Assembly (NCBI RefSeq): GCF_001887595.1
Contig: NZ_CP017480.1
Location: forward strand, 2,322,001-2,386,000
Source: Luteibacter rhizovicinus DSM 16549
Lineage (GTDB): Bacteria; Pseudomonadota; Gammaproteobacteria; Xanthomonadales; Rhodanobacteraceae
Direction of reading: 5' to 3'
DNA length: 64,000 bases
This document shows positions 14,381 to 29,123 of the stretch, piece by piece. The translations under genes and the position numbers were made by a program. Below the pieces are notes generated by a model, which saw only the letters and a program-made list of their open reading frames with translations, did not search any database and was not told the origin of the DNA. Each line of letters opens with the position of its first letter. The first letter of the stretch is position 1.

Positions 14381-16336
14381 ATGCATTCAGTGTCCTTCGC
14401 CGGTCTGCCGGCCGCTTCACGTCGCAAGTTCTCGCGCCTCTCCCTGGCCCTTGCCCTGGCGCTCGCCGCCGGCACGGCTTCGGCGGACGTTCCTTCCGAC
14501 CAGGTCCCGCCGCCGCAGGACACGCCGTACGTCGGCACGGTGGCACTCCATGTCGATGCCAACGATACGGCGCAGGGCATCTTCCGCGTTCGCGAATCGA
14601 TTCCGGTGAAGGCTGGCGCCTTGACCCTGCTGTACCCGCAGTGGATTCCGGGCGACCACTCGCCGACCGGTCCGATCGCGATGCTCGCCGGCCTCAAGAT
14701 CAGTGCGAACGGCAAGCCGGTCCAGTGGAAGCGTGACGAGTACAACGTCTACGCCTTCCATCTCGACGTGCCGGCCGGCGTCTCGGCGATCGACGTGGAG
14801 TTCCAGTACCTTTCCGAGCGTGCGGACGATGCGGACTTCGAGATCACCGACCGCATGCTGTACATGGAGTGGAGCAAGGTGGCGCTCTACCCGGCGGGTT
14901 ACTACACGCGCGGCATCACCTTCGCGCCGAGCGTGACACTGCCGAAGGGCTGGCAGCTCGGGACCGCCCTGGAGACGGGGTCGAAGTCCGGCGACACCAC
15001 CACGTTCAAGTCGGTGAGCTTCGAGAACCTGGTCGATTCGCCGATCTACGCGGGCCAGTACTTCAAGCGTGTTCCGCTCAACCCGGGTGACAAGGCACCG
15101 GTGTTCCTCGATGTAGTCGCGGATGAGCCGAAGTTCCTCGAGATCACGCCCGAGCAACTGACGGCGCATCGCAACCTGGTGACCCAGGCGACGAAGCTGT
15201 TCGGCTCGCATCATTACGACCACTACGACTTCCTGTTCTCGCTGTCCGACCAGCTGGCGGGCAACGGCACCGAGCATCACCAGTCGAGCGAAGACGGCCT
15301 GGGCGCCGACTACTTCACCGCCTGGAAAGAAAACGCATCGGAGCGCGACCTGCTTGCCCACGAGTACACGCATTCGTGGAACGGCAAGTTCCGTCGCCCG
15401 GCGGACCTGTGGACGCCGAACTTCAACGTCACGATGGGTGACTCGCTGCTGTGGGTGTACGAAGGCCAGACGCAGTACTGGGGCTTCGTTCTGACCGCGC
15501 GCGCCGGCATGTGGACGCCGCAGGAGTTCCGCGACGGCCTGGCCATGGTCGCAGCGAACTACGAGCGCAACCGCGAAGGTTTCCAGTGGCGCACGCTCGA
15601 GGACACCACCAACGACCCGACCGTCGCCCGCCGTTCGCCGCTGCCGTACCGCAGCTGGCAGATGAGCGAGGATTACTATAGCGGCGGCCAGATGATGTGG
15701 CTGGACGTGGATGCGAAGCTGCGCAGCCTGACCAAGGACAAGCACTCGCTCGACGATTTCGCACAGGCGTTCTTCGGTGTCGAGAACGGCAGCTACGTAC
15801 CGAAGACCTATACGTTCGACGACGTGGTCGCCGCCTTGAACGGCGTCGCGCCGTTTGATTGGGCCAGCTTCATCAAGGCACGCGCTACCTCGCTCAACCC
15901 GCCGTTGCAGGACGGCCTCGCGGCTTCTGGTTGGAAGCTGGTCTACGACGATAAGGAAAGTGAGTTCGAGACGCAGTCCGACAGCCGTCCGGAATCGTCG
16001 CGCCACATGCTCAACTTCACTTGGTCGATCGGCCTGACGCTGACGAGCAGCGGCAAGGTCAATGACGTGCGCTGGGATGGCCCTGCGTTCAAGGCAGGCG
16101 TCAGCACGGGTGCCACGGTGATTGCGGTGAACGGCACCGTGTATTCGAAGGATGCGATGACGAGTGCGATCACGGCCGCCAAAGACAGCAAGACGCCGAT
16201 CGACCTGACGGTGAAGTACCAGGGTCGCATCCGTACGATTCCGGTGGATTACCACGGTGGGCTGCAGTATCCGCATTTGGTGCGGATTGCGGGGACGCCG
16301 GATTACTTGAGCGAGATTATTGCGCCGCGGAAGTAA
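14381..16336 (+). CDS. M61-family glycyl aminopeptidase with PDZ domain
   Basis: The 651-residue exported zinc peptidase has a signal peptide (LSLALALALAAGTASA) and an N-terminal beta domain. The catalytic domain has HEYTHSWNGKFRRP (zinc ligands His327, His331; Glu328 catalytic) and the downstream LWVYEGQTQYWG glutamate ligand. The C-terminal PDZ-like domain includes VRWDGPAFKAGVSTGATVIAVNG. The family removes N-terminal Gly or Ala in the periplasm. It converges on the MerR gene across a hairpin terminator. A catalytically degenerate relative is encoded at 51704-53155. Confidence 0.93.
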   Translation: MHSVSFAGLPAASRRKFSRLSLALALALAAGTASADVPSDQVPPPQDTPYVGTVALHVDANDTAQGIFRVRESIPVKAGALTLLYPQWIPGDHSPTGPIAMLAGLKISANGKPVQWKRDEYNVYAFHLDVPAGVSAIDVEFQYLSERADDADFEITDRMLYMEWSKVALYPAGYYTRGITFAPSVTLPKGWQLGTALETGSKSGDTTTFKSVSFENLVDSPIYAGQYFKRVPLNPGDKAPVFLDVVADEPKFLEITPEQLTAHRNLVTQATKLFGSHHYDHYDFLFSLSDQLAGNGTEHHQSSEDGLGADYFTAWKENASERDLLAHEYTHSWNGKFRRPADLWTPNFNVTMGDSLLWVYEGQTQYWGFVLTARAGMWTPQEFRDGLAMVAANYERNREGFQWRTLEDTTNDPTVARRSPLPYRSWQMSEDYYSGGQMMWLDVDAKLRSLTKDKHSLDDFAQAFFGVENGSYVPKTYTFDDVVAALNGVAPFDWASFIKARATSLNPPLQDGLAASGWKLVYDDKESEFETQSDSRPESSRHMLNFTWSIGLTLTSSGKVNDVRWDGPAFKAGVSTGATVIAVNGTVYSKDAMTSAITAAKDSKTPIDLTVKYQGRIRTIPVDYHGGLQYPHLVRIAGTPDYLSEIIAPRK

Positions 16337-17539: not shown

Positions 17540-19138
17540 TCAGGGGCCGTGCGACTGCTGCGGCGCCTGCGGTTGCTGCGTCTGCACCGGCTGCGAAACC
17601 ACCGGCTTCTCGGCCTGCTGCTGATCCATCCGCGCGTATTCGGCACTGCTCTGCTCAAGCGGCTTCGCCACCGACTGCGCGACATCCACTTCAGCCACGC
17701 GCTTGAACGGCGAGCTCGTCTCGCCCTGCATGGCGTAAGCACGCTTGCCGTCGTCGCTGATCTCGACGTGGTTCACCCGCGAGAGGTCCTCTTTCCTCGC
17801 CGCGACGGCCAACGACCCTGCGAGGTTCTCCGACATGTGGTCGGACGGGCGACCCATCTTGGCATCGATGATCTTTACGCCGTCGAGCGCCTGCTTATAA
17901 ATCCCATTGCCCGGGTGGCCGGGATCGGCGAGGCTGCCGACGTTCGGATGGCTGACTGGCGCCGCAGGACCTGCTTGCGTCGGATGAGCGACCTGCGGCG
18001 GATGCGCCGCCTTCTGCACGGCCTCGAGCGTTTTTGGCCCGGCCACGCCATCGGCGGTCAGCCCGTGCTCGCGCTGGAATTTCTCCACCGCAGCCTTGGT
18101 GCCCGGACCAAAGTCGCCATCCGGACGCAACGCGCGGCCGTGAGCATCCGTGATGCCGAGCTTTGCGAGATCGGTCTGCAAGGCCGTCACCTTCTCGCCG
18201 TGCGAACCATCCTTCAGCGAGCCGTGGCTGGCTGGCGCATGCGCACGGCCACCCTGGCCGATCGCCTTGAGCGCTGCCTTGATGTCGGCATCGTCGCCGG
18301 CCTTGGACGGATCGAAGTTGGCGTTACCGACCTTGGTGTGCGCGCGATCGAGGGCGGCGGCCTTCTCCGGATCCTTGTAAGCGTTCTTGTACTGCTCGGC
18401 CAGAGCGGCGGCTTTCGGGCCGTCGTAGTACGAGTAGGTTTCCTTGATCTCGTTGGCCTTGGCGAGCACGGCGTTGTAGTCACCGCCATCCTGCAGGACT
18501 TTCTCGAACTTCTTCATCTGTGACGGAATCTGGTTCTCCGTCTTGGCAAGGATGGCGACGGTCTCCAGGCGATGATCTTCCGGGATGTTCTTGCCGTACT
18601 TGTCGAGCGTGTCCATCGCCGACTGCGTCGCATTCTTGATTTGCGGGTAGTCGATGTTCGTATGGACCCACTTCTGGCCGTCCTGCGAACCTGCCCACGC
18701 ATTGATGCTGTTGCGCGTGTCCGCATCGATGAAGTGCAGCGTGGTGCGGCCGTGCTCGCCGTTGCCGTGCGTCAGCAGGTCGCTGCGCAGCTTGGCCGTG
18801 TCACCGGTGTAGGTGAGGCCATGGTCCTTTGCGTATTTCGAGGACTGGTCGATGATGCCGTCGACGTAGGTGGTCTCGCCGGGCTTAAGCGCGGCGCCGT
18901 CGGTGGCGCCGAGCGCCCAGGTGCCGCGCTTGCCGAGGTCGACCTGGATGGTGCCCAGCGAATAGCCGCTGTCCGCGATGATCCTGTTGGCGTGACCCCA
19001 GTTGGGATCGGACGTGCCGGACGTGACGCCGGTGATGGACAGGTGGTAGGAAGACGGGCCACCTTCGGTGCCGCGTCCGACCACGAAATACGTGGCGCCT
19101 GCGAGCGAGTTCACATCGTGCGTATCGATACCAGCCAT
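17540..19138 (-). CDS. XVIPCD-tagged type IV secretion effector with peptidoglycan-binding domain
   Basis: The 532-residue protein has three parts. Residues 1-190 form an unidentified, probably enzymatic domain with SGYSLGTIQVDLG, reminiscent of lysozyme-superfamily segments. Residues 305-378 are a peptidoglycan-binding_1 repeat (GEKVTALQTDLAKLGI, GDFGPGTKAAVEKFQ, GVAGPKTLEAV). Residues 404-510 are the XVIPCD secretion signal (DRVNHVEIS-like SRVNHVEISDDGKRAYAMQG) with a Gln-rich tail. XVIPCD directs toxins into the antibacterial X-T4SS of Xanthomonadales. The predicted target is the cell wall of competitors. A periplasmic DUF1311 protein lies immediately upstream as the likely immunity factor. 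No secretion machinery is in the window. Confidence 0.85.
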   Translation of the reverse strand: MAGIDTHDVNSLAGATYFVVGRGTEGGPSSYHLSITGVTSGTSDPNWGHANRIIADSGYSLGTIQVDLGKRGTWALGATDGAALKPGETTYVDGIIDQSSKYAKDHGLTYTGDTAKLRSDLLTHGNGEHGRTTLHFIDADTRNSINAWAGSQDGQKWVHTNIDYPQIKNATQSAMDTLDKYGKNIPEDHRLETVAILAKTENQIPSQMKKFEKVLQDGGDYNAVLAKANEIKETYSYYDGPKAAALAEQYKNAYKDPEKAAALDRAHTKVGNANFDPSKAGDDADIKAALKAIGQGGRAHAPASHGSLKDGSHGEKVTALQTDLAKLGITDAHGRALRPDGDFGPGTKAAVEKFQREHGLTADGVAGPKTLEAVQKAAHPPQVAHPTQAGPAAPVSHPNVGSLADPGHPGNGIYKQALDGVKIIDAKMGRPSDHMSENLAGSLAVAARKEDLSRVNHVEISDDGKRAYAMQGETSSPFKRVAEVDVAQSVAKPLEQSSAEYARMDQQQAEKPVVSQPVQTQQPQAPQQSHGP

Positions 19139-19162: not shown

Positions 19163-19606
19163 TTATTGGTCGTTGGCGATGGTGAGGTACTTGTCCAGGG
19201 CATCGGCGCGTTCGGCGATGCTGAAGATTTCGTTCTGCGTGACCTGAAGATCGGCTACAGGCTCGTCGCCATACAGGGCGGCTTCGAAGTCGCCGTTCCG
19301 GTTGTGGAACTCGAGCCAGGCGCGTTCGGACGTCAGCAGATTGGCCTTGGCGTTGCCGGTGAGCTTGGCGGTCAGCGCCTTGTAGGTGGTGTTGAGCCGC
19401 GTGTCCTGGGTCTTCTTTTCGGTGGCGAGGCAGGCGCCTTGCGCCGTGGCGTCGGAACCGGCCTTGTCGACGCACGTATAGAACGTGGCCGTGATGCCTT
19501 TGGGGGCCTGGCGCTTGATGACCTGGCTGGTGCTGTCGGCGGCGAAGGCACTGCTGCCGGTGACGAGAAGGGCGAGAGTGATGGCGAGCGTGTGGACCGT
19601 TCTCAT
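19163..19606 (-). CDS. LprI/DUF1311-type periplasmic protein, candidate immunity to the XVIPCD effector
   Basis: This 147-residue protein has a signal peptide (HTLAITLALLVTGSSAFA) and a DUF1311 (LprI-like lysozyme-inhibitor) domain: CLATEKKTQDTRLNTTYKAL, then LLTSERAWLEFHNRNGDFE. LprI family members inhibit lysozyme, which suits an immunity protein against a wall-degrading effector. It precedes the effector by 24 bp on the same strand, the usual order for such pairs. AGGAG (19614-19618) places the start at 19606, or at the adjacent ATG 19609. Confidence 0.82.
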   Translation of the reverse strand: MRTVHTLAITLALLVTGSSAFAADSTSQVIKRQAPKGITATFYTCVDKAGSDATAQGACLATEKKTQDTRLNTTYKALTAKLTGNAKANLLTSERAWLEFHNRNGDFEAALYGDEPVADLQVTQNEIFSIAERADALDKYLTIANDQ

Positions 19607-19868
19607 CATGGAGCTCCTGATCGTGCGTGTGTCGGGGTTTCTTGCGCCCCCGCAGCTTGCCGAACGTGGGCTCAAAAGCCAAGAGACGCGGGTCTCAGTT
19701 AAGCCGTCTTCACATAACCATCATGAATTTCCGAAATGGCGCAATGCGTGGAACGGATGCCTCATTGGTGCTGTCCGATCAACACCATGCGCACACCATT
19801 CCGCCTATCCAGCGTCATATTTGACCCCTACATTCGAAGGCTAGCCAACGCCAGCACGGGAACCTGCC

Positions 19869-21389
19869 ATGTCTAACGATTCTGACTCCGCACCCGTCGG
19901 TCCCGATTTCAGCCAGGGCGTGTATGCGTCCACGATTCCCGAGGACGGTGTCTTCGCCGGCCATGTGAACGGTGAAGCGATCATCGTGGCGCGCACCAGC
20001 GACGGCATCGTGGCGCTGGGTGGCGCCTGCAGTCACTACAGCGGTCCCTTGCACGAGGGTCTGCGCGTCGGCGACACCATTAACTGTCCACTGCATCACG
20101 CTTGTTTCGATCTGAGGACGGGCCGCGCGCTGAAGGCGCCGGCACTCGCGCCCGTCGCGCGCTGGAAAGTGGACGAGGAGGGCGGCAAGGTGTTCATTCG
20201 TGAAGCGTTGCCTGATGAGGTGCCGCCGGCTCCGGCGTTGCTGGCGGACAAGCATTTCGTGATCGTGGGTGGTGGGGCGTCCGGCTTCGCGGCGGCGCAG
20301 CGCCTTCGCCAGCATGGGTTTGCCGGCGGTATCACCATGATCAGCGCCGATGCGGACGCGCCGTACGACCGGCCGAACGTGTCCAAGGACTATCTGGCCG
20401 GCACGGCCGAGCCGGAGTGGATGCCGCTGAAGGACGAGGCGTTCTACGCGGATCTGAAGATCGTCGTGAAGCTGGATACGGTCGTCCGTTCGATCGATGC
20501 GGGTTTGCGGTCGGTCGCGCTCGCGTCCGGCGAGTCCCTGGTCTACGACAAACTCCTCCTGGCGACGGGCGCGGAGCCGATTCGCCCCGCGGCGCCGGGC
20601 TTCGATCAGCCGCACGTGCATACCTTGCGGAGCATGAAGGACGCCGAGCGTGTGATCGCCGATGTGGACAGCCACGATGTCGTCGCGGTGATCGGCAGCA
20701 GCTTCATCGGTCTCGAAGCGGCAGCATCGCTGCGCCATCGTGGTATCGAGGTGCACGTGATCGGGCCGGAGCTGATTCCCCTGCGTAGCAAGTTCGGGCC
20801 GTCGATCGGAACGATGATCAAGGCCTTGCACGAGGAGAACGGCGTGGTGTTCCATCTCGGTCGTCGCGCGGAAGGCTATGCCGACGGCGCCGTGCAGCTC
20901 GATGACGGCAGCTCGGTGCGCGCGACACGTGTGGTACTCGGTATCGGCGTCAAGCCGCGTCTACAACTTGCCGAGGCGGCCGGTGTGCGCATCGAAGGCG
21001 GCGTCCTTGTCGACGCGTCGATGCGCTCCTCCGATCCGGACATCTTCGCGACCGGCGACATCGCCCGCTACCCGGGCAGGCACGGCGAGCCTGCACGCGT
21101 CGAACACTGGGTGCTCGCCGAGCGCCACGGCCAGGTCGCGGCGGCGGGCATGCTCGACATCGACGATCCGTTCGAAGAGCCGCCATTCTTCTGGAGCGTC
21201 CATTACGACACCACCATCCGCTACGTCGGCCATGCCGAGGACTGGGATGCGATTCGCGAGGAAGGCTCGGTGGCGGACAAGGACGCCGAGGTGCGCTACG
21301 AGAAAGATGGGCGCGTGATTGCTGTGGCGACGATCAATCGGGACCTGGATTCGCTGAAGGCGGCGGAGATGTTGAAGGGAGTGGCCTGA
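19869..21389 (+). CDS. Rieske [2Fe-2S]/FAD-dependent oxidoreductase (AIFM3-like)
   Basis: The 506-residue fusion has an N-terminal Rieske domain (cluster ligands Cys54-x-His56 and Cys73-x2-His76, in ACSHYSGPL and CPLHHACFD) and a pyridine nucleotide-disulfide reductase module. The FAD motif is VIVGGGASGFAAA (about 132), the NAD motif is VAVIGSSFIGLEAAA, and IFATGDIARYPG binds FAD. The architecture equals AIF-like/rubredoxin-reductase-type ferredoxin reductases with a built-in Rieske electron acceptor. Its electron partner is not evident. It converges on the three-gene operon that ends at 21400. Confidence 0.92.
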   Translation: MSNDSDSAPVGPDFSQGVYASTIPEDGVFAGHVNGEAIIVARTSDGIVALGGACSHYSGPLHEGLRVGDTINCPLHHACFDLRTGRALKAPALAPVARWKVDEEGGKVFIREALPDEVPPAPALLADKHFVIVGGGASGFAAAQRLRQHGFAGGITMISADADAPYDRPNVSKDYLAGTAEPEWMPLKDEAFYADLKIVVKLDTVVRSIDAGLRSVALASGESLVYDKLLLATGAEPIRPAAPGFDQPHVHTLRSMKDAERVIADVDSHDVVAVIGSSFIGLEAAASLRHRGIEVHVIGPELIPLRSKFGPSIGTMIKALHEENGVVFHLGRRAEGYADGAVQLDDGSSVRATRVVLGIGVKPRLQLAEAAGVRIEGGVLVDASMRSSDPDIFATGDIARYPGRHGEPARVEHWVLAERHGQVAAAGMLDIDDPFEEPPFFWSVHYDTTIRYVGHAEDWDAIREEGSVADKDAEVRYEKDGRVIAVATINRDLDSLKAAEMLKGVA

Positions 21390-21399
21390 GCGTCGCTCG

Positions 21400-22458
21400 C
21401 TACGGAATGGGCTTGGTCGTCGCGACCTTCATGTTCGGTTGCGCGACGTAGGCCTGGGCATTGGGCGGTGTGTACTTGGGATCGTTGCCCGAAAGACGCG
21501 TGATCACCGAGGTATGGATCGCCTCTTCCCCATGGGCCTGTGTGCCGATCGGCCGAAGGTAGGCGCCCATGAGTCGATACTTGAGGTCCATCGAGTCGTA
21601 CAGCTGGCCATCGGCGTGCGGCACAAAGGGCTTGAGGTAGCGAGTGTCGATGGCCAGGCCAAGGGCTGCAGCTTCCCCAGCGAGCCACCACAAGGCTTCG
21701 TTGGCGAGTCCATCATGCGGATAGCCACCGCCGACATTGCAGTGGACCCCGGCGAACCAGACCTGCTCCAGGTGCCCCCTCCAGCCGGGCGGTTTCTCCC
21801 ACAGTGTCGGCACGAAGGGCTTGCGCCGTTCGTCGATGGCCAGCGCGTGGAAGGCGTTCTCTATCTCGTCGGATAACCCGACCTGGTGGTAGACGTACTT
21901 CTTGTCGTTGAGCACCTGGCCCAGCAGCCCGGGCGCTCCCAGGGAGCCGACGGTGTCCCAGACGCCGATCATCTTGATCGTCGGGAAGATGCGCTCGCCT
22001 TCCAGATGGTGGATGGCCGTCGCCCATGCCTCGCTGCCCGGCCCCTGCCCGCTTTCGTAGCAGGCGTAGAAATCGGGGGTGTAGTAATCGTCGGTCTTCC
22101 TCAGCAGGCCGGCGAACGTCAGGAAGCCGGCCAGGCTGCGTGCCGTGAAAGCGCCACGGCTGAAGCCGAAGAAGAACAGCTCGTCACCGGGTTCGTAGTT
22201 GTAGAGGATGCTTCGATAGAGCGCGACGATGTTGTCCTCTATGCCATCGCCGAACGCGCCGCCGGTCCATTTGTCCATGCCCGGTCCGGTGCCGACGCCT
22301 TCGCGATAGATCACCAGCTGGGTGATGCCGTTGGCATCGGTGGGCAGGATGGCGCGTGCCAGCTTGGTGACATTGGTCGGGCGCCGTGTCTTGCTGCCGT
22401 CGTTGATCTGGTCCTGCACGTTCCAGGTACCATCGGCGCACACAATGATCCGTTTCAT
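21400..22458 (-). CDS. DUF2235 alpha/beta hydrolase (Tle1-like phospholipase fold)
   Basis: This 352-residue protein opens with the DUF2235 signature KRIIVCADGTWN, followed by GVGTG and the nucleophile elbow FFGFSRGAFTARSLAG (Ser100 in GxSxG). Asp168 (GVWDTVGSLG) and His239 (FAGVHCNVGGGY) complete a plausible triad. The same domain forms the phospholipase Tle1 of type VI secretion. Here it is compact, without the membrane-insertion or VgrG-binding extras, and no signal peptide is seen. It is the third gene of a tight operon with an MBL-fold protein and a metalloprotease. Confidence 0.88.
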   Translation of the reverse strand: MKRIIVCADGTWNVQDQINDGSKTRRPTNVTKLARAILPTDANGITQLVIYREGVGTGPGMDKWTGGAFGDGIEDNIVALYRSILYNYEPGDELFFFGFSRGAFTARSLAGFLTFAGLLRKTDDYYTPDFYACYESGQGPGSEAWATAIHHLEGERIFPTIKMIGVWDTVGSLGAPGLLGQVLNDKKYVYHQVGLSDEIENAFHALAIDERRKPFVPTLWEKPPGWRGHLEQVWFAGVHCNVGGGYPHDGLANEALWWLAGEAAALGLAIDTRYLKPFVPHADGQLYDSMDLKYRLMGAYLRPIGTQAHGEEAIHTSVITRLSGNDPKYTPPNAQAYVAQPNMKVATTKPIP

Positions 22459-22468
22459 CGTTGTTCCC

Positions 22469-23800
22469 TCATAGCTTCACCCATGTCACCACCTGTTCGT
22501 CGCCCGTTGTCGTGCGCGTATCGAACAGATCGGACTCCTTGGTCAGTGCCGTGACGAGTGGATCCCGCGGCACTTCCGTGCCCGCCGTCTCATTGCCGTG
22601 CACGCCGGCCAGGGTCGACAGCACCGAGATGAGCCGACCCTTCTTCGTCTTGGTTCCCCGGGCCGTGAATCCGTTCCAGAGGTCCTTGGGTGTGGCGTTG
22701 AGGCTGCCGTGGTGACCGACCTTGTAGAGGTCGACCTTGGCGAGCCGGGCCACGATGGCCGGGTGCGATAGCGCATACATCCAGTTCTCGTATTGCGCAT
22801 CGCCGGGGAAGAGGAAGCTCTTGCCGGCCACTTCGAACAACAGGACGACACTGGTGTTGTTCATGGCGCTGTCCAGTGTGCGGACGATCGACAGCAGGTT
22901 CTCGGCCTGCTCGCGCTGGGCCTGGTATCGATACCAGCGCATGTCCCAGGGATGCCGCTTCTCGACATGGCGGGGAAATAGCACGCCGTCGGTCGCTTTC
23001 GCGTACCTGGCGATCTGTCCGTGTTGTGCCCAGAAGTCCGCCCGCGCTGCAAGTTGCATCCAGAACTGATCCGGGTCCTTGGCTCGCTGGGTCGCGATGC
23101 CCGGGGACTGCTTCAGCGTGGGTGGGCCTAGTACGGTGGTGGTGACACCGGGCAGCACCGATTCCAGCCCTGACTTGGCGCCGAAGTACACGTAGCGTTT
23201 CTTCCGCCCCATCTTCATCAGGTTGGTGATGGCATCGCGATTGGTCAGGTCGTTGTCATCGCCAAGGAAAGCCAGTTGCTCCCGGGTGGCCTTGAGGTGA
23301 TTGCCGCGTAAGCGCTTGCTGGCGGAGACGACGTAGCCGGCGAACTCGTTCATGTCATGCAGGGCGTCGATGTGCTGGATTGCCGCCTTGGTATCGCCAT
23401 TGCGCATGGCGCTGGTGGGGCCCTTGGCATTACGTCGCGCCTTGGGGTCTTCGGTCCAGGGCTGGATGACCAGGTCAGGATCGAGTCGACGAATCACGGC
23501 GCCCGGGCCCTTCCCGCCGCTGTAAGTGAAGCCGCTGATGTGGTCCTTGTGCCGGTGCGTGACGACGAGCGCGTGCAGCTTGCCCTCGCAATCGGTCTCG
23601 ATCTGTTTGGCGATGGCCATCATGTGCGCGGCCATGACCTTGCCTTTGGGCGCGCGCGTGGAGCCGAAGTCGATCAGTACGTGGCGGTCGAAGTCGGTGT
23701 AACGAAAGGTCAGCAGGAAGCAGTCGCCGAAGCCGACGTTGTAGCTGCGCAGGACCATGTCGTGGGGTGCGGTGGCTTTGGGTTTTCGTGTCGTCGCCAT
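22469..23800 (-). CDS. metallo-beta-lactamase-fold hydrolase (ComEC/Rec2-like)
   Basis: The 443-residue cytosolic protein has the full di-metal motif HxHxDH (THRHKDHISG, His82, His84, Asp86, His87), the later Asp in FLFPGDAQYENW and the His pair in YKVGHHGSLN. This order (DxGfGD..., HRHxDH, FPGD, GHHGS) is that of ComEC/Rec2-type MBL proteins, which include nucleases acting on DNA or nucleotides. An insert of about 200 residues separates the metal motifs, with basic segments such as RGNHLKATREQ. It starts one base after the protease stop and ends 10 bases before the DUF2235 gene. The target is unknown. Confidence 0.88.
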   Translation of the reverse strand: MATTRKPKATAPHDMVLRSYNVGFGDCFLLTFRYTDFDRHVLIDFGSTRAPKGKVMAAHMMAIAKQIETDCEGKLHALVVTHRHKDHISGFTYSGGKGPGAVIRRLDPDLVIQPWTEDPKARRNAKGPTSAMRNGDTKAAIQHIDALHDMNEFAGYVVSASKRLRGNHLKATREQLAFLGDDNDLTNRDAITNLMKMGRKKRYVYFGAKSGLESVLPGVTTTVLGPPTLKQSPGIATQRAKDPDQFWMQLAARADFWAQHGQIARYAKATDGVLFPRHVEKRHPWDMRWYRYQAQREQAENLLSIVRTLDSAMNNTSVVLLFEVAGKSFLFPGDAQYENWMYALSHPAIVARLAKVDLYKVGHHGSLNATPKDLWNGFTARGTKTKKGRLISVLSTLAGVHGNETAGTEVPRDPLVTALTKESDLFDTRTTTGDEQVVTWVKL

Positions 23801-23801
23801 C

Positions 23802-25541
23802 TCACCATTGCTCCCTTGTCGAAAGCAGCGGGCGCAGAACCCGATCCCGGTGCAGGCTGGCGATCCGCGCGGATGCAGTGATCTGCTGGCTGAAGTAGCC
23901 TCGATCCCAGAGGCTCTGCAGTCGATCGGATTGACGCGGACTCTTCACGCCCGTGCCGATATGGAACTTCAGCAAGCCGTATTCGTTGAAAACCAGCGTC
24001 CCGCCGCCGTACAGTTGGATCAGCCGGTTGGTCGGCATGCCGTCGGGCTTCCTGATGCCGAGCGACTTCAGCTCGCTGGCGTAGACCGATAGCTCCTGGA
24101 TGTACTCCACGACAGTCTCACGCAGTAGCGTCTGGTCGTTGCTGATGCGCAGCACGGGTCGCACCGAGGTGACCCGGGAGAAGGCATTGCGCTCGATACC
24201 GAGTGCCGCCTTGTTCTCCCAGATGAAGCGGAACACTTCCAGCGGCTCGCGTTGCATCCGTTCGAAGTGCGTGCCGGTGAGGGTGAATTCACTGGCCGGC
24301 GGCGGTTGCCAGGCACCATCGGGTCGTGCACGCGCCGCGGGGTTGACGCCGTAGGCTTCAAAGGACGTCATCAGCACCTCGCGATACCGGTATCTCGTGT
24401 CGTCCGGATAAAGCTGCATATCGGCGGTGATCACGGCGCTGAGGAAATCGGGGAACGTCAGGTCGACCGGTGGCATGTAATCGAGCGCGCGGATCAGGAT
24501 GCGCAGCAATTGCTTGGCGGCCGTCGTGCCTTCGTCGGTGACGACCGAGCGTGCGATGCCGTTGGGATACCCCTGGGCAAGCGGTTTGAGTCGGCGCGCC
24601 CAGACCTCGAAGAACGCCCGCAGCACGATGGCGACCAGCAGCTCCCCACGGTCGTGTTCCTCCGCGAACCGTGCGCTGGTGTAGTGGCCCTTGTTCGGCT
24701 TGATCCGGAGCGAGGCGCGTAGCGAGGACGTGGGGACGCCACTGAGCGCGGCCCCCATCTGCTCGGCGAGCTTGGCGATCTGCGTGCCACCCAAGGCCGC
24801 CGCCGTGAGATGTTGCAAAGGGATGCGGCCGCTGCGGTCGGTCAGGGGCACCAGGAGGCGCTCGATGATGCTTTCGCCCTGGAAGACCGACAGCAAGGCC
24901 ACGATGTCGGAGAAGCCTTCATGGAAGGCCGCCTGGTCCGGCGACGACGGCAGGAGGTAGCTGGGACGGAGTCCATCCAGCAGGGCGTGCGTGGTTTCGT
25001 GCACCACGATGTCGTGGGATAGACATGTGAAAACCTGCTTGCCCTTGCTATCCGGGAAGTAGCCGAAGTTGAGGCTTTCGGATTCGCGCGAGTAGTAGGC
25101 GTTGGCATCGGCAAACGCGTGCGGCGCCACCTTGATCTGGTGGCTCGGGGTCGGGAATCCCCACGGCACGGGCCGACCCAGGGCGCCCTCGAAGGCCTGC
25201 AGGGTCGACATCACGATGGCGTAGACATTCTGCTGATGGAAATAGGGATTGCGGACCAGCTTCTCGATGTCGGTCACCTTGGCGAAGGTGTCCTTGTCGA
25301 TATCCTTGTCGCGTGCGCGATAGAACGTATCGGACGAAGCGTCGTAATCGATCACGTGGACGCGATAGCCCTTGGGGCCACGCTCCAGACGCTCGGAAGG
25401 CACGCTTACCGTGCTTGTCAGCGCCTTGCCGCCCGCGCCGAGGATCGACGGATCCTGGGCAAGGATGGTCCACGACCGCATGGGCACGTCCTGCCGCAAG
25501 GTGTCGTACGCAGTCTTCCCTGACGGGCGCTGGATAGTCAT
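23802..25541 (-). CDS. thermolysin-like (gluzincin) zinc metalloprotease, first gene of a three-gene operon
   Basis: The 579-residue protein has HETTHALLDG (zinc ligands His181, His185; Glu182 catalytic), and 22 residues on, FHEGFSDIVALL. The Glu of this segment (Glu208) is the third zinc ligand in gluzincins such as M4 peptidases. No signal peptide, propeptide or membrane segment is visible, so it probably acts in the cytosol or is released with partners. The other 400 residues show no known domain. With MBL and DUF2235 hydrolases in a one-transcript arrangement it may be part of a defence or effector module; that is inference. Confidence 0.82.
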   Translation of the reverse strand: MTIQRPSGKTAYDTLRQDVPMRSWTILAQDPSILGAGGKALTSTVSVPSERLERGPKGYRVHVIDYDASSDTFYRARDKDIDKDTFAKVTDIEKLVRNPYFHQQNVYAIVMSTLQAFEGALGRPVPWGFPTPSHQIKVAPHAFADANAYYSRESESLNFGYFPDSKGKQVFTCLSHDIVVHETTHALLDGLRPSYLLPSSPDQAAFHEGFSDIVALLSVFQGESIIERLLVPLTDRSGRIPLQHLTAAALGGTQIAKLAEQMGAALSGVPTSSLRASLRIKPNKGHYTSARFAEEHDRGELLVAIVLRAFFEVWARRLKPLAQGYPNGIARSVVTDEGTTAAKQLLRILIRALDYMPPVDLTFPDFLSAVITADMQLYPDDTRYRYREVLMTSFEAYGVNPAARARPDGAWQPPPASEFTLTGTHFERMQREPLEVFRFIWENKAALGIERNAFSRVTSVRPVLRISNDQTLLRETVVEYIQELSVYASELKSLGIRKPDGMPTNRLIQLYGGGTLVFNEYGLLKFHIGTGVKSPRQSDRLQSLWDRGYFSQQITASARIASLHRDRVLRPLLSTREQW

Positions 25542-25869
25542 GGTCGTTCCCCGTTTCTCCCGCGATCACACTACGCGATTCCCGACGCAGTGAAGAGGCC
25601 CCGTTGCCGGAATTGCCCACTAGTTCCGCCCCCGGCAGATATGCCATCTGGCCAAGACCCCATGTAGGAGCCGATTCATCGGCGAAAGCCAACGGAGCAA
25701 AGACGCGGAAGCCTCCACTCGTGGCGAGATCCGGGGCGGCCCCGTGCCGGAACGGCCTAAGCGAGACGCGGGCGCGCCCGACGTTACGGGCGCTCGGCGC
25801 TGATACCGCTACGATGCGCCAATCAGGAAGATCGTCAGGCCGAATTACCGGCCGAAGATGGAGGATTGT
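25542..25869. other. 328-bp spacer with one REP-like element
   Basis: It must carry the promoter of the three-gene minus-strand operon. A single REP-like copy (GTAGGAGCCGATTCATCGGC) lies at 25664-25683. An open frame across it looks non-coding because its composition reflects the repeat. No other gene is seen. Confidence 0.6.
25664..25683 (+). repeat. single REP-like element
   Basis: GTAGGAGCCGATTCATCGGC upstream of the metalloprotease operon; the leftmost full copy in the window. Confidence 0.75.
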
Positions 25870-26277
25870 ATGGAAGCAATAATCAGACCCGCCCGCTCGC
25901 CTTTTTATCGTGGGGCTCTCGCCGCCGCGTTTCTGGCCGCCTCAAGCGGCGCAGTCGCCGAGGTGCAGTATCCGCCGATATCGAGCATGTCTGACTTCGA
26001 GAAAGCGGCGCTCGAAGCGAGGCTGACGTCGCTTGCAACCCTGGGTGCGAATGAGAGCGAGGGCTGCGAGCACTGCGATGTCAAATTGGCGGTGTCGCTA
26101 GATGCAGAACACAACCGCGTCCAGGTCGATGTCATTGGCAGCACTAGCCCCTCCGAGGACGACGTGGGAGATGAGCACCTGGGCCGAGGGATTGCTCGCC
26201 GAATCGATCCGTTGGTGCAAAAGATCACAGGGGTAAAAGGGGTTACCTACCGCTCGGACGGGAACGATTTCTGGTGA
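25870..26277 (+). CDS. small secreted protein of unknown function
   Basis: This 135-residue product has a signal peptide (FYRGALAAAFLAASSGAVA) and a mature part with one Cys pair (GCEHCDVKL). GGAGG at 25860-25864, five bases upstream, selects the ATG at 25870 over the one at 25858. The acidic middle (SPSEDDVGDEHLG) and C-terminus are not assignable. It ends four bases inside the start of a decayed HipA-like gene; any functional link is doubtful. Confidence 0.65.
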   Translation: MEAIIRPARSPFYRGALAAAFLAASSGAVAEVQYPPISSMSDFEKAALEARLTSLATLGANESEGCEHCDVKLAVSLDAEHNRVQVDVIGSTSPSEDDVGDEHLGRGIARRIDPLVQKITGVKGVTYRSDGNDFW

Positions 26278-26288
26278 TGGCTGGTATG

Positions 26289-27160
26289 GCAACGCTCCCC
26301 AAGATCGGCAGGCGCGACGTACGAGGGCTCGGGTCGACGTGGCCTCTATATCGCATCGACACTCACGGTCGGCCGCGCGACTTCGGAATCTTGACGGCTC
26401 TTCGTGGCTCCGCAAGCCTGGTGGTCCCGTCACTTCAGACGGACTGGAGTTCACCACGACAATCGACGACGGCGAGGGGAGCTTTCGCCACGTCATCGTG
26501 AAGTTCAGCGAGCCCGTTGACGATCGTCCAGCGGCGCGTCGATGGGCCGATCTGCTCATCAGCGAACACTTGGCCGACCAGTTGCTCGCCGAACAGGAGG
26601 GAGCCGACGCCCGCACTGATCTGGTGTGGTCGCAAGGACGCGTCTGTCTGGAAGTGACTCGATTCGATCGCGTGGGGGTGCACGGATGGCGAGGATGCTT
26701 GACGCTTGCAGCATGGAGCGACGCACATGACGGCGACCGGGATGATTGGCCCGGCACGGCATTACGCATGCAACAGCATGGGTGGATCGAGAGCGACGCC
26801 GTGGAACAGGTGCGGAAGCGTTGGTGGTTCGGACGCCTGATTGCAAACAGCGACATGCATTTTGGCAATCTAAGCTTCTTCCTGGGTGACGCGCTTCCGC
26901 TTCAACTTACCCCGAGCTATGACATGTTGCCGATGTTGTATCGGCCGGCGACAAGCGGTGAACTGGTCGCGCGAGAGTTCCGGTCACCGTCGCCGACGCC
27001 TGCTGATCTCGCATTCTGGACGGTGGCTGCCGAGTGGGCTGACGCCTATTGGCAGCGCGTGTCTGCACACGCAGAGATCAGTGCGGACTTTCGACACATT
27101 GCTGCGACCAACCGGGAAGCCATCTCGAGAGCACGCATTCGATTCGAAGTCGGTAGCTAG
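26289..27160 (+). pseudogene. HipA/YjjJ-like kinase toxin, decayed
   Basis: Two frames together cover a YjjJ-type HipA protein. Frame one (26289-26420) gives the conserved VRGLGSTWPLYRIDTHGR segment. From about 26400 a second frame gives the kinase: VIVKFSEP (ATP-binding lysine), VCLEVTRFDRVG, RLIANSDMHFGNLSFF (catalytic Asn-Asp region) and LTPSYDMLPMLY (metal-binding Asp). The usual N-terminal winged helix and roughly 100 residues between the two parts are missing. The catalytic half is well preserved, so decay is recent. Intact relatives are about 440 residues. No antitoxin partner is visible, in keeping with solitary YjjJ genes. Confidence 0.72.
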
Positions 27161-27636: not shown

Positions 27637-28308
27637 TCACTGGTCCAATGGAGCGGTCGTCTTCTCCAGAATCCGCATCGATTCCGCGTTCTTTCGTTCC
27701 CACTCCTGTGCTTCCTTCTTGCTCATCTTTGAAATTGCTGGAGGAGGCGTCGGATCAGCGAGCACGTTGTCGGACACATGGCCTGTCGGTGCCGGAGTAC
27801 GCGGCATCGAAGGCTTCACAACGGGCGCTGGCTGTGGGACCGACACGTGTTGAGACGCGTGAACGAGCGAGGTCGTCATGTTCTTGAATATGGCGGGGAT
27901 GACGAGGTAGTAGCCGAGCAGCAGAACGCCGATCGTCAGTCCTGCCTGGATGAGCAAGAACACGCCTTTTCGATCCTTTTTCGTCCACGACGGTTTCGAT
28001 GGCTTATTACCGGCCATGGTCGACAGCGGATCCCCGGCCCAGTGAGCCGTCGGCAGATCGCCGGTTTCCGAGAGCATGCGCCGCAGACCCACGCCATCGA
28101 TCAACTCGATCTGCGGGAACTCGGCGGCTGCGGTGATGGCGGCCGCGCTGAACGCTCCCGTGATGACGACGATAGCCCGCGTGGCGTGCTGGGTATGCAT
28201 CACGCCGATCAGCTGGTGAACGACGTTATGCGTTACCTCGTAGAAATTCTCTCGCTTGCACTGCACAACGATGTATTCGCCGTCGCGGTAGAGCTTGAGG
28301 TCGCTTAC
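27637..28308 (-). pseudogene. Mrr-like membrane nuclease, second tandem copy lacking its N-terminus
   Basis: The frame runs from the end of the preceding paralogue (about 28308) as SDLKLYRDGEYIVVQCKREN, VVHQLIGVMHT, a membrane helix (FLLIQAGLTIGVLLLGYYLVI) and a Pro-rich tail. It parallels the upstream gene from the catalytic Asp onward, but some 60-70 N-terminal residues are absent and replaced by the upstream gene's stop. The only usable start is GTG 28266, inside the QCK motif, which would omit the catalytic Asp. It is best read as the remnant of an unequal duplication, though a coupled truncated product is possible. Confidence 0.7.
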
Positions 28309-29123
28309 TGATCTTTCAGCACGGTGGCGATCGGCTTCTTGTCTTCCAGCGCAGCGACGACTTCGTGCTCATCGGCGGCATGGTGGATCACAGGCGGACG
28401 CGTTCGCATCGTCTCGACCATCCTCAGGCCGGACGTTAGTCCTGGCAGGACAGAGGGCGGCGGAGCGGCCGCGCGTTGCTGGGTCGCCACTGGCTTTTGA
28501 GCATCCAGCAGCCTCGCCATCTGCGCCTGCTGAATCTCATGAATGTAAAAGGTGTAAAGCATCACCAGCGCCCCGGCCATCACGACGACGGCCGCCACCG
28601 CGGCGACTGCTGCGGCACGATCTGTCCGGTGCTGGCGCGTCTGTCTCACGGGCGGTCGCGCTGCGCCGGTCCAGGCGGGAAACGCGGGCAAGGCCGGTGC
28701 CTCGTCGATCGGCTCAGCAACCGGCCCGAGCATCGCCCGGATGGTCTTGCCGTCGATGAGCTTGATGTGCCGGAACTTCGCGGCGGCCTCGCAGGCCGCG
28801 GTGGTGAACTCACCCGAGGTGATCACGATGGCGGCTGTCGCTCCCGCGGTATGCATCACGCCGATGAGCTGATGTACGTCGTTGTGGGGCACCTGGAAGG
28901 AGTTCCAGTGCTTGCACTGGACGACGACGAGTTCCTGTTCGCGGTAGAGCGTGAGGTCGATACCGCCGTCCGTGAGCCTGCTGCTTTCACCGGTACCGGT
29001 GTGCTCGACGCGATAGCCTTGCCGACGGAAGTGCTCCGCGACCAGGTGCTCGAAAGCACCCCAGGTGACCCGGCTCAGTGCATCGTCGTGACGATGGCGC
29101 ACGGACTTCATGCCAGGTCTCAT
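28305..29123 (-). CDS. Mrr/PD-(D/E)xK nuclease-like membrane protein
   Basis: The 272-residue protein has an N-terminal restriction-endonuclease-like domain: FEHLVAEHFRRQGYRVEHTG, then GGIDLTLYRE (Asp) and VVVQCKHW (QxK), the Mrr_cat pattern. After HQLIGVMHTAGATAAIVIT comes a linker and one membrane helix (AVAAVAAVVVMAGALVMLY, about residues 172-195), then a Pro-rich tail. Fusion of an Mrr-type nuclease to a membrane anchor is seen in uncharacterised proteins and some defence genes. A beheaded copy follows directly downstream. The role is unknown; foreign-DNA restriction at the membrane is inference. Confidence 0.82.
   Translation of the reverse strand: MRPGMKSVRHRHDDALSRVTWGAFEHLVAEHFRRQGYRVEHTGTGESSRLTDGGIDLTLYREQELVVVQCKHWNSFQVPHNDVHQLIGVMHTAGATAAIVITSGEFTTAACEAAAKFRHIKLIDGKTIRAMLGPVAEPIDEAPALPAFPAWTGAARPPVRQTRQHRTDRAAAVAAVAAVVVMAGALVMLYTFYIHEIQQAQMARLLDAQKPVATQQRAAAPPPSVLPGLTSGLRMVETMRTRPPVIHHAADEHEVVAALEDKKPIATVLKDQ

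Follow-up and report, generated by a model that had tools for sequence, protein, structure and literature searches.

A signal-peptide-free thermolysin-fold protease and a ComEC-like metallo-beta-lactamase-fold hydrolase form a conserved gene pair with exchangeable lipase partners

The window analysed here, a 64,000-nucleotide stretch of the Luteibacter rhizovicinus DSM 16549 genome, contains a minus-strand operon of three hydrolase genes, encoding a gluzincin protease, a metallo-beta-lactamase (MBL)-fold hydrolase and a DUF2235 (PF09994) alpha/beta-hydrolase that is presumably a phospholipase (Table 1). Comparison with related loci shows that the conserved unit is not this trio but the pair made up of the protease, which has no signal peptide, and the ComEC-like MBL hydrolase that follows it; the third gene is exchangeable, and the unit is small, with two genes or three in ~4.1 kb. 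The first-pass annotation, made from the letters of the window alone, had described three minus-strand genes separated by 1 bp (protease–MBL) and 10 bp (MBL–lipase), each with a complete catalytic motif and none with a signal peptide, and the open reading frames (ORFs) and conserved residues confirm the arrangement and the motifs. Hydropathy likewise revealed no signal peptide or membrane helix in the operon proteins (highest 19-residue mean, 1.52). The protease and the MBL hydrolase represent real gene families, since homologues at E <= 0.001 made up 7412 of the 7996 candidates scored for the protease and 6303 of the 8000 scored for the MBL.

The protease alignment was scanned against 84,980 species, each represented by a single genome, and gave at least 593 matching stretches, at least 466 of which encode a relative. 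In the best 80 of these relatives, found by the protease alone, an MBL gene lies directly downstream in 75 loci; among the other five, two end at a contig edge (L022, L083) and three lack the MBL gene (L016, L050, L053). A DUF2235 gene stands beside the pair in only seven of the 80, which rules out the trio as the conserved unit. Of the co-occurrence sought by the first-pass annotation, the protease–MBL order holds and DUF2235 as a constant third member does not. The MBL gene is also present in 15 of 16 plasmid loci (absent from L131), a set hand-chosen from 40 listed of 63 matching records at 12–14 kb each, and in 10 of 14 loci from searches of the family and phylum, where those without it (L140, L141, L146, L147) are distant relatives. 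Protease and MBL distances correlate at 0.68 across the 70 loci in which the MBL had good model coverage, a value that still includes common host descent.

The protease is predicted to adopt a thermolysin/M36-type fold over residues ~20–405. His181, Glu182 and His185 of the zinc-binding and catalytic motif HETTH, and Glu208 (in HEGFSD), are invariant in 25 aligned proteases, the window included, and Glu208 is the predicted third zinc ligand, a role that we assume from the M4/M36 pattern. By its modelled fold the enzyme is a gluzincin with the HExxH motif and downstream Glu common to M4 and M36, and we claim membership of neither family; its M36 Pfam score is 13.1 bits, under the cut-off of 23.3. 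The nearest named homologue, from a Luteibacter metagenome-assembled genome (MAG), shares 81% identity. A C-terminal beta-rich part (residues ~440–546, window 23904–24224) gives weak matches to NTF2-like folds and could serve as a sensor or assembly domain. Elsewhere the metalloprotease domain is found at the C-terminal end of frames of ~1030–1240 residues (L085, 4168–7878; L124, 4708–7806; L136–L139, L144 and L145). The front of the L085 frame is an S8 subtilase by Pfam, as is that of L124 by annotation, so that two protease classes are fused ahead of the MBL gene. In L142 (8816–10584) the protease is split over two frames, possibly through decay or sequencing error, and MBL and patatin genes still follow.

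The best fold and sequence match of the MBL hydrolase is ComEC, and its best family models are LmuA, RTasMBL and Avs1a, LmuA and Avs1a being defence MBLs. The residues of its metal motifs are invariant or more than 90% conserved in 25 sequences, one of them truncated. The protein exceeds the ComEC domain by some 180 residues, about 190 of its residues have no counterpart in that domain, and the span from the HxHxDH block to the GD block is 217 positions in the window protein versus 71 in ComEC, the second block being weakly aligned. The additional sequence includes two insertions, the second mostly predicted to be disordered, and model confidence is low at residues 131–134, 235–241 and 249–282. 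Across the 70 MBLs both insertions are retained (gap fractions of 0.09 and 0.13), with conservation of 0.39 and 0.36 versus 0.57–0.59 for the core. Within the disordered stretch of insertion 2, the residues LFP (274–276) are kept in 59, 77 and 70% of these proteins, respectively. Thermolysin-like enzymes favour a bulky hydrophobic residue after the cut, and we speculate from the sequence that LFP may be a candidate cleavage site.

The window's own third gene matches PF09994 with an E value of 3.6e-75, and its nucleophile elbow GFSRGA, Asp168 and His239 are invariant in 13 of 13 DUF2235 partners, the window included. The seven adjacent DUF2235 genes among the 80 loci are in L004, L051, L058, L059, L061, L073 and L074. 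Patatin genes occur in 14 of the 80, adjacent in L005, L014, L015, L023, L029, L030, L033, L043, L047, L078 (across a 309-bp gap), L079, L080 and L083, and one gene off in L027; the L005 and L078 patatins were assigned to PF01734 by Pfam, the remainder were called by homology, and two further matches fall outside the 14, one on the opposite strand at a distance of 1.6 kb in L012 and a weak one 2.7 kb away in L016. The Ser of SGGS and Asp302 of DGG, which we take to be the patatin catalytic dyad, are kept in 17 of 17 patatin partners. Partners lie either upstream or downstream of the pair. Other same-strand neighbours encode astacin-like (L013, L025, L032), M14 (L010) and S8 (L069) peptidases, a rhomboid protease (L012) and a deaminase-like frame (L066). 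Of the plasmid loci, L084, L088 (on the divergent strand), L124 and L128 have DUF2235 as the partner, L086 and L130 have a patatin, L087 has a phospholipase D (PLD)-like protein similar to DISARM DrmC, L091 an S1/P1 nuclease and L126 an LCAT-like lipase with an S1/P1 gene downstream; in the remaining seven of the 16 no such partner type adjoins the pair.

Exchange of the third gene is also evident from a quick tree of 99 proteases, from which near-duplicates (L039, L057, L128, L135, L145), split, weak or MBL-less loci (L126, L131, L140–L142, L146, L147) and copies of the window (L001, L092) were excluded. On well-supported branches the 16 patatin rows require at least 11 gains or losses and the 12 DUF2235 rows at least nine, and patatin versus DUF2235 alone requires at least five changes. 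With all labels together there are 27 changes, compared with a mean of 31.3 after shuffling (three of 200 shuffles were equally low). The window protease's own clade (support 100) contains DUF2235 (window, L004), patatin (a Nitrospira MAG, L005) and neither (L134). In a set of 57 carrier genomes or records, PF09994 has 21 strong matches; 13 of these, the window's own among them, are no more than 8 kb from the protease and 11 no more than 2.5 kb from it, with 0.38 expected. This count leaves out seven of 28 matches as weak (E > 1e-60), contains two very similar operons (W01, W12) and mildly over-represents DUF2235 loci, as its 35 genome loci, hand-picked mostly for long contigs, hold five of the seven. 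Protease–lipase distances correlate at 0.71 for DUF2235 and 0.32 for patatin, with nine loci each, too few to use. No further same-strand gene family of at least 80 residues recurs near the pair (shorter genes were not examined). Neighbours that looked unrelated and were not counted as partners include a cupin, an ABC/methyltransferase frame, FtsK, GH43, MacB, BNR, WG repeats, asparagine synthase and a helicase. Pfam gave no match for close neighbours in L024, L041, L054, L085, L088 and L127, or for eight of 10 in a further set, and these may hide further partners.

Table 1. Positions of the operon, its motifs and neighbouring features in the window
Feature	Size or residues	Position	Strand	Basis
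Operon, three hydrolase genes		21400..25541	minus	ORF list
Core gene 1, gluzincin protease	579 aa	23802..25541	minus	ORF
HETTH, zinc-binding and catalytic motif	181–185	24987..25001	minus	ORF, alignment
Glu208, predicted third zinc ligand	208	24918..24920	minus	Alignment
Core gene 2, ComEC/Avs1a/LmuA-like MBL hydrolase	443 aa	22469..23800	minus	ORF
MBL metal motif THRHKDH	81–87	23540..23560	minus	ORF, alignment
MBL insertion 1	~115–197	23210..23458	minus	Boundaries judged from secondary structure of model
MBL insertion 2, mostly predicted disordered	~228–290	22931..23119	minus	Model, alignment
MBL metal motif FPGD	331–334	22799..22810	minus	ORF, alignment
MBL metal motif GHHGS	362–366	22703..22717	minus	ORF, alignment
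Exchangeable third gene, PF09994 (DUF2235, Tle1-like) alpha/beta-hydrolase, presumed phospholipase	352 aa	21400..22458	minus	ORF
GFSRGA, nucleophile elbow	98–103	22150..22167	minus	ORF, alignment
Lipase Asp168	168	21955–21957	minus	
Lipase His239	239	21742–21744	minus	
Variable site between reductase-like gene and HipA-like remnant		21390..26338	no strand	Comparison with two congeners
Reductase-like gene, kept flank of variable site		19869–21389		Named from translation
HipA-like gene	273 aa	26339–27160	plus	
X-Tfe-type effector		17540–19138	minus	
LprI-type inhibitor gene		19163–19675	minus	
First Mrr-like protein		27637–28266	minus	
Second Mrr-like protein		28305–29123	minus	
Large protease-like ORF		14381–16336	plus	

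The pair is widespread and patchily distributed. The best 80 loci come from Pseudomonadota, Acidobacteriota, Actinomycetota, Myxococcota, Nitrospirota, Planctomycetota, Chloroflexota and other phyla, and one protease locus is in a Thermoplasmata MAG, possibly through a binning error. Among 23 genomes of its genus the protease is found in L. rhizovicinus DSM 16549 only, and it occurs in nine of the family's 233 genomes when distant forms are counted, and in eight of 398 sampled from the phylum. The operon occupies a variable site, since two congeners (L132, L133) keep the flanking genes while the interval between the reductase-like and HipA-like genes holds other genes. Carriage as phage cargo was rejected, with partial matches in only two of 50,697 phage records; a scan of viral contigs, which performs best on close relatives, gave 228 pattern matches and no relatives.

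Known systems offer a model for such a pair. According to the main text of a recent paper (PMC12799240, Science 2025), two disordered insertions gate the MBL nuclease of a Hachiman system, which is a pro-enzyme and is cleaved by a trypsin-like partner protease, AVAST operates likewise, the MBLs of both function as nucleases, and caspase-nuclease (canu) loci, with the nuclease gene downstream, use the same activation. As described there, the pairs of HamMAB Hachiman, AVAST type 1, Lamassu and defence-associated reverse transcriptases (DRT) resemble the present one in having a related MBL beside a protease, in their spread over distant hosts, and in an MBL that is enlarged over the competence nuclease and partly disordered; they differ in that the window protease is thermolysin-fold rather than trypsin-like, is encoded by a separate gene upstream of the MBL gene with no fusion to HamA, LmuA or another sensor part, and is accompanied by a lipase as a third gene. 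Canu, in the same text, likewise has a protease gene that stands by itself ahead of the MBL gene, and variable extra genes, but the window has a metalloprotease in place of a caspase, and lipases, and no TPR (tetratricopeptide repeat) or Ig-like partner was recognised. Because proteases of 'other diverse families' are also mentioned there as neighbours of MBLs, the group described here may already be present in the trees of PMC12799240. The first-pass annotation knew of no described system of this composition; MBL pro-nuclease pairs with trypsin-like and caspase proteases are in fact described in that main text, and a metalloprotease–MBL–lipase system was not found in literature listings, some of them incomplete. 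The words 'metalloprotease', 'thermolysin', 'lipase' and 'patatin' are absent from the main text of PMC12799240, and its figures or supplements may include such a system.

Some resemblance to other systems is also apparent. The MBL model of the PADLOC candidate PDC-M48B matches the window MBL (E 1.6e-9), whereas the window protease, with its thermolysin/M36-type fold, has no PADLOC match. The name PDC-M48B presumably hints at an M48 metallopeptidase partner. The third gene has the same catalytic domain, with Ser-Asp-His, as the Tle1-like phospholipases (PF09994) of the type VI secretion system (T6SS), but here it belongs to a protease–MBL locus with no T6SS linkage found. Patatin lipases such as CapV act as effectors of the cyclic-oligonucleotide-based anti-phage signalling system (CBASS). 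The patatin partners are alike as possible membrane-killing effectors, but the operon has no CD-NTase and the only partner patatin run in PADLOC was unmatched.

We hypothesize that the operon is a conflict module spread by lateral transfer, whose most likely role is anti-phage cell suicide, with a protease-gated MBL DNase and an optional, swapped lipase effector, and we regard this reading as somewhat better than an even chance. The likeliest reading of the core, by analogy, is that the pair is a metalloprotease version of the nuclease–protease immune pairs, because the anatomy of the window MBL, enlarged and partly predicted to be disordered, resembles that of the pro-nucleases in the main text of PMC12799240. 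In our working model, the fixed core would pair a thermolysin-fold protease, located in the cytosol, with a ComEC-type MBL restrained by insertions near its active site; upon infection, the protease would cut these insertions and the MBL would become a DNase. The third gene, here the DUF2235 phospholipase, would supply an optional and exchangeable second effector attacking the membrane of its own cell, and the lipase is perhaps under protease control too. The analysis shows the gene order and pairing, the motifs, the predicted folds, the sequence added relative to ComEC, the partner exchange and the patchy spread; activity as DNase and lipase, gating by proteolysis, self-killing and phage defence are what we infer. 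A version of the switch with a thermolysin-fold protease, thousands of relatives, presence in distant phyla and interchangeable lipases would show that a third class of protease operates in such switches and that they may govern attack on the membrane as well as on DNA. In a bolder form, which is possible but which we would not expect, the module is a stand-alone cascade with no dedicated sensor gene, in which the protease itself senses infection, perhaps via its C-terminal beta-rich domain, frees the gated MBL DNase and unlocks whichever lipase is present, one protease driving two modes of self-destruction and the effectors being freely swapped. If true, this would add a third class to the proteases that activate pro-nucleases, and lipases to their partners.

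The idea of a conflict system, raised by the first-pass annotation, thus gains from the linked multi-hydrolase module, swapped partners, patchy spread, some plasmid carriage and defence-related MBL, and fails as far as the trio itself was meant. Several observations weigh against it. Distant protease relatives may be without the MBL gene (L131, L140, L141, L146, L147), and no sensor gene was recognised. A total of 66 of the 99 tree rows carry no counted partner type, and so the lipase is not essential. Neither N6_Mtase (two of 68 matches within 20 kb of the protease) nor SIR2_2 (two of 46 matches near it, both on one plasmid) is enriched, and we rejected location in chromosomal defence islands by these two families. 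HamA was matched twice in the set of 57, each time no more than 4 kb from the protease, a proximity weakened by the choice of this family after both had been noticed. The enrichment near defence genes or secretion loci sought by the first-pass annotation is therefore flat on chromosomes, with no T6SS linkage, and suggestive at most on plasmids. There, five of the 16 loci lie near CBASS, HamA or SIR2, or seven if caspase and N-6 methylase genes are counted, the neighbours being Hachiman-like DUF1837–helicase genes (L086, L091), CBASS (L128, L130) and SIR2 (L124); control stretches of 40 kb, one from each of seven of these plasmids, contained no CBASS, HamA or SIR2, one Shedu and one TIR gene. 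This signal is only suggestive because the list of terms was drawn up after the loci had been viewed. STAND, SMC and HamAB were not found in the operon, nor by PADLOC among eight neighbours (five also run in Pfam), and HamA had no match in the L. rhizovicinus genome.

The flat chromosomal tests and the many loci in which the pair has no counted partner would also fit a housekeeping or stress module that turns over protein and lipid without a conflict role, as a mobile accessory trait. We consider this unlikely, given that the protease is rare and patchy even inside its genus, that the lipase type has been exchanged repeatedly and that the MBL is related to defence MBLs. That the MBL is not a nuclease but a phosphodiesterase or an enzyme of lipid head groups, which would confine the module's attack to membranes, is more doubtful still, with ComEC as best fold and sequence match, LmuA, RTasMBL and Avs1a as best family models, and Hachiman and AVAST MBLs that are nucleases in the main text of PMC12799240. 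The first-pass annotation had also proposed a set of co-delivered effectors, that is, three enzymes injected or secreted into rivals by a T6SS or otherwise, with the DUF2235 protein as a Tle1-type effector. Pfam names PF09994 for T6SS Tle1 effectors, the host genome includes a T6SS sheath gene, and an X-Tfe effector/inhibitor pair lies ~2 kb from the operon. Yet the sheath gene TssC/VipB was matched in only 14 of 43 carrier genomes and never near the pair, being on the pair's contig in two genomes only, more than 1 Mb off, and the sole match in the L. rhizovicinus genome is 1.58 Mb from the operon. Moreover, four of the seven carriers with adjacent DUF2235 in this set have no TssC match, the XVIPCD signal is in none of the three operon proteins, and among same-strand neighbours of the size examined above no immunity-like family recurs. 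T6SS co-delivery is therefore disfavoured, and co-delivery in general is improbable.

As for the surroundings of the operon in the window, the adjoining HipA-like gene appears to be a remnant, with 273 residues compared with 462–469 in its counterparts in L133 and L132. The site was rejected as a defence hotspot, the same site in the two congeners having no defence-looking genes as judged from translations, with no family search. On the other side, the X-Tfe-type effector carries an XVIPCD domain (PF20410) and a peptidoglycan-binding domain and adjoins the LprI-type inhibitor gene, and this pair is in the same position in two congeners. Two Mrr-like proteins have relatives in three congeners; the second matches Mrr_cat (7.7e-29) and PADLOC PDC-S02 (4.7e-12), and ZorD and mREase_IV more weakly. 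A large protease-like ORF, which we take to be M61-like, has the motif HEYTH and a signal-like N-terminus and gave no PADLOC match. A second, weaker PF09994 match in the host chromosome is located at C1:1065996-1066691 on the minus strand, within a 790-residue frame.
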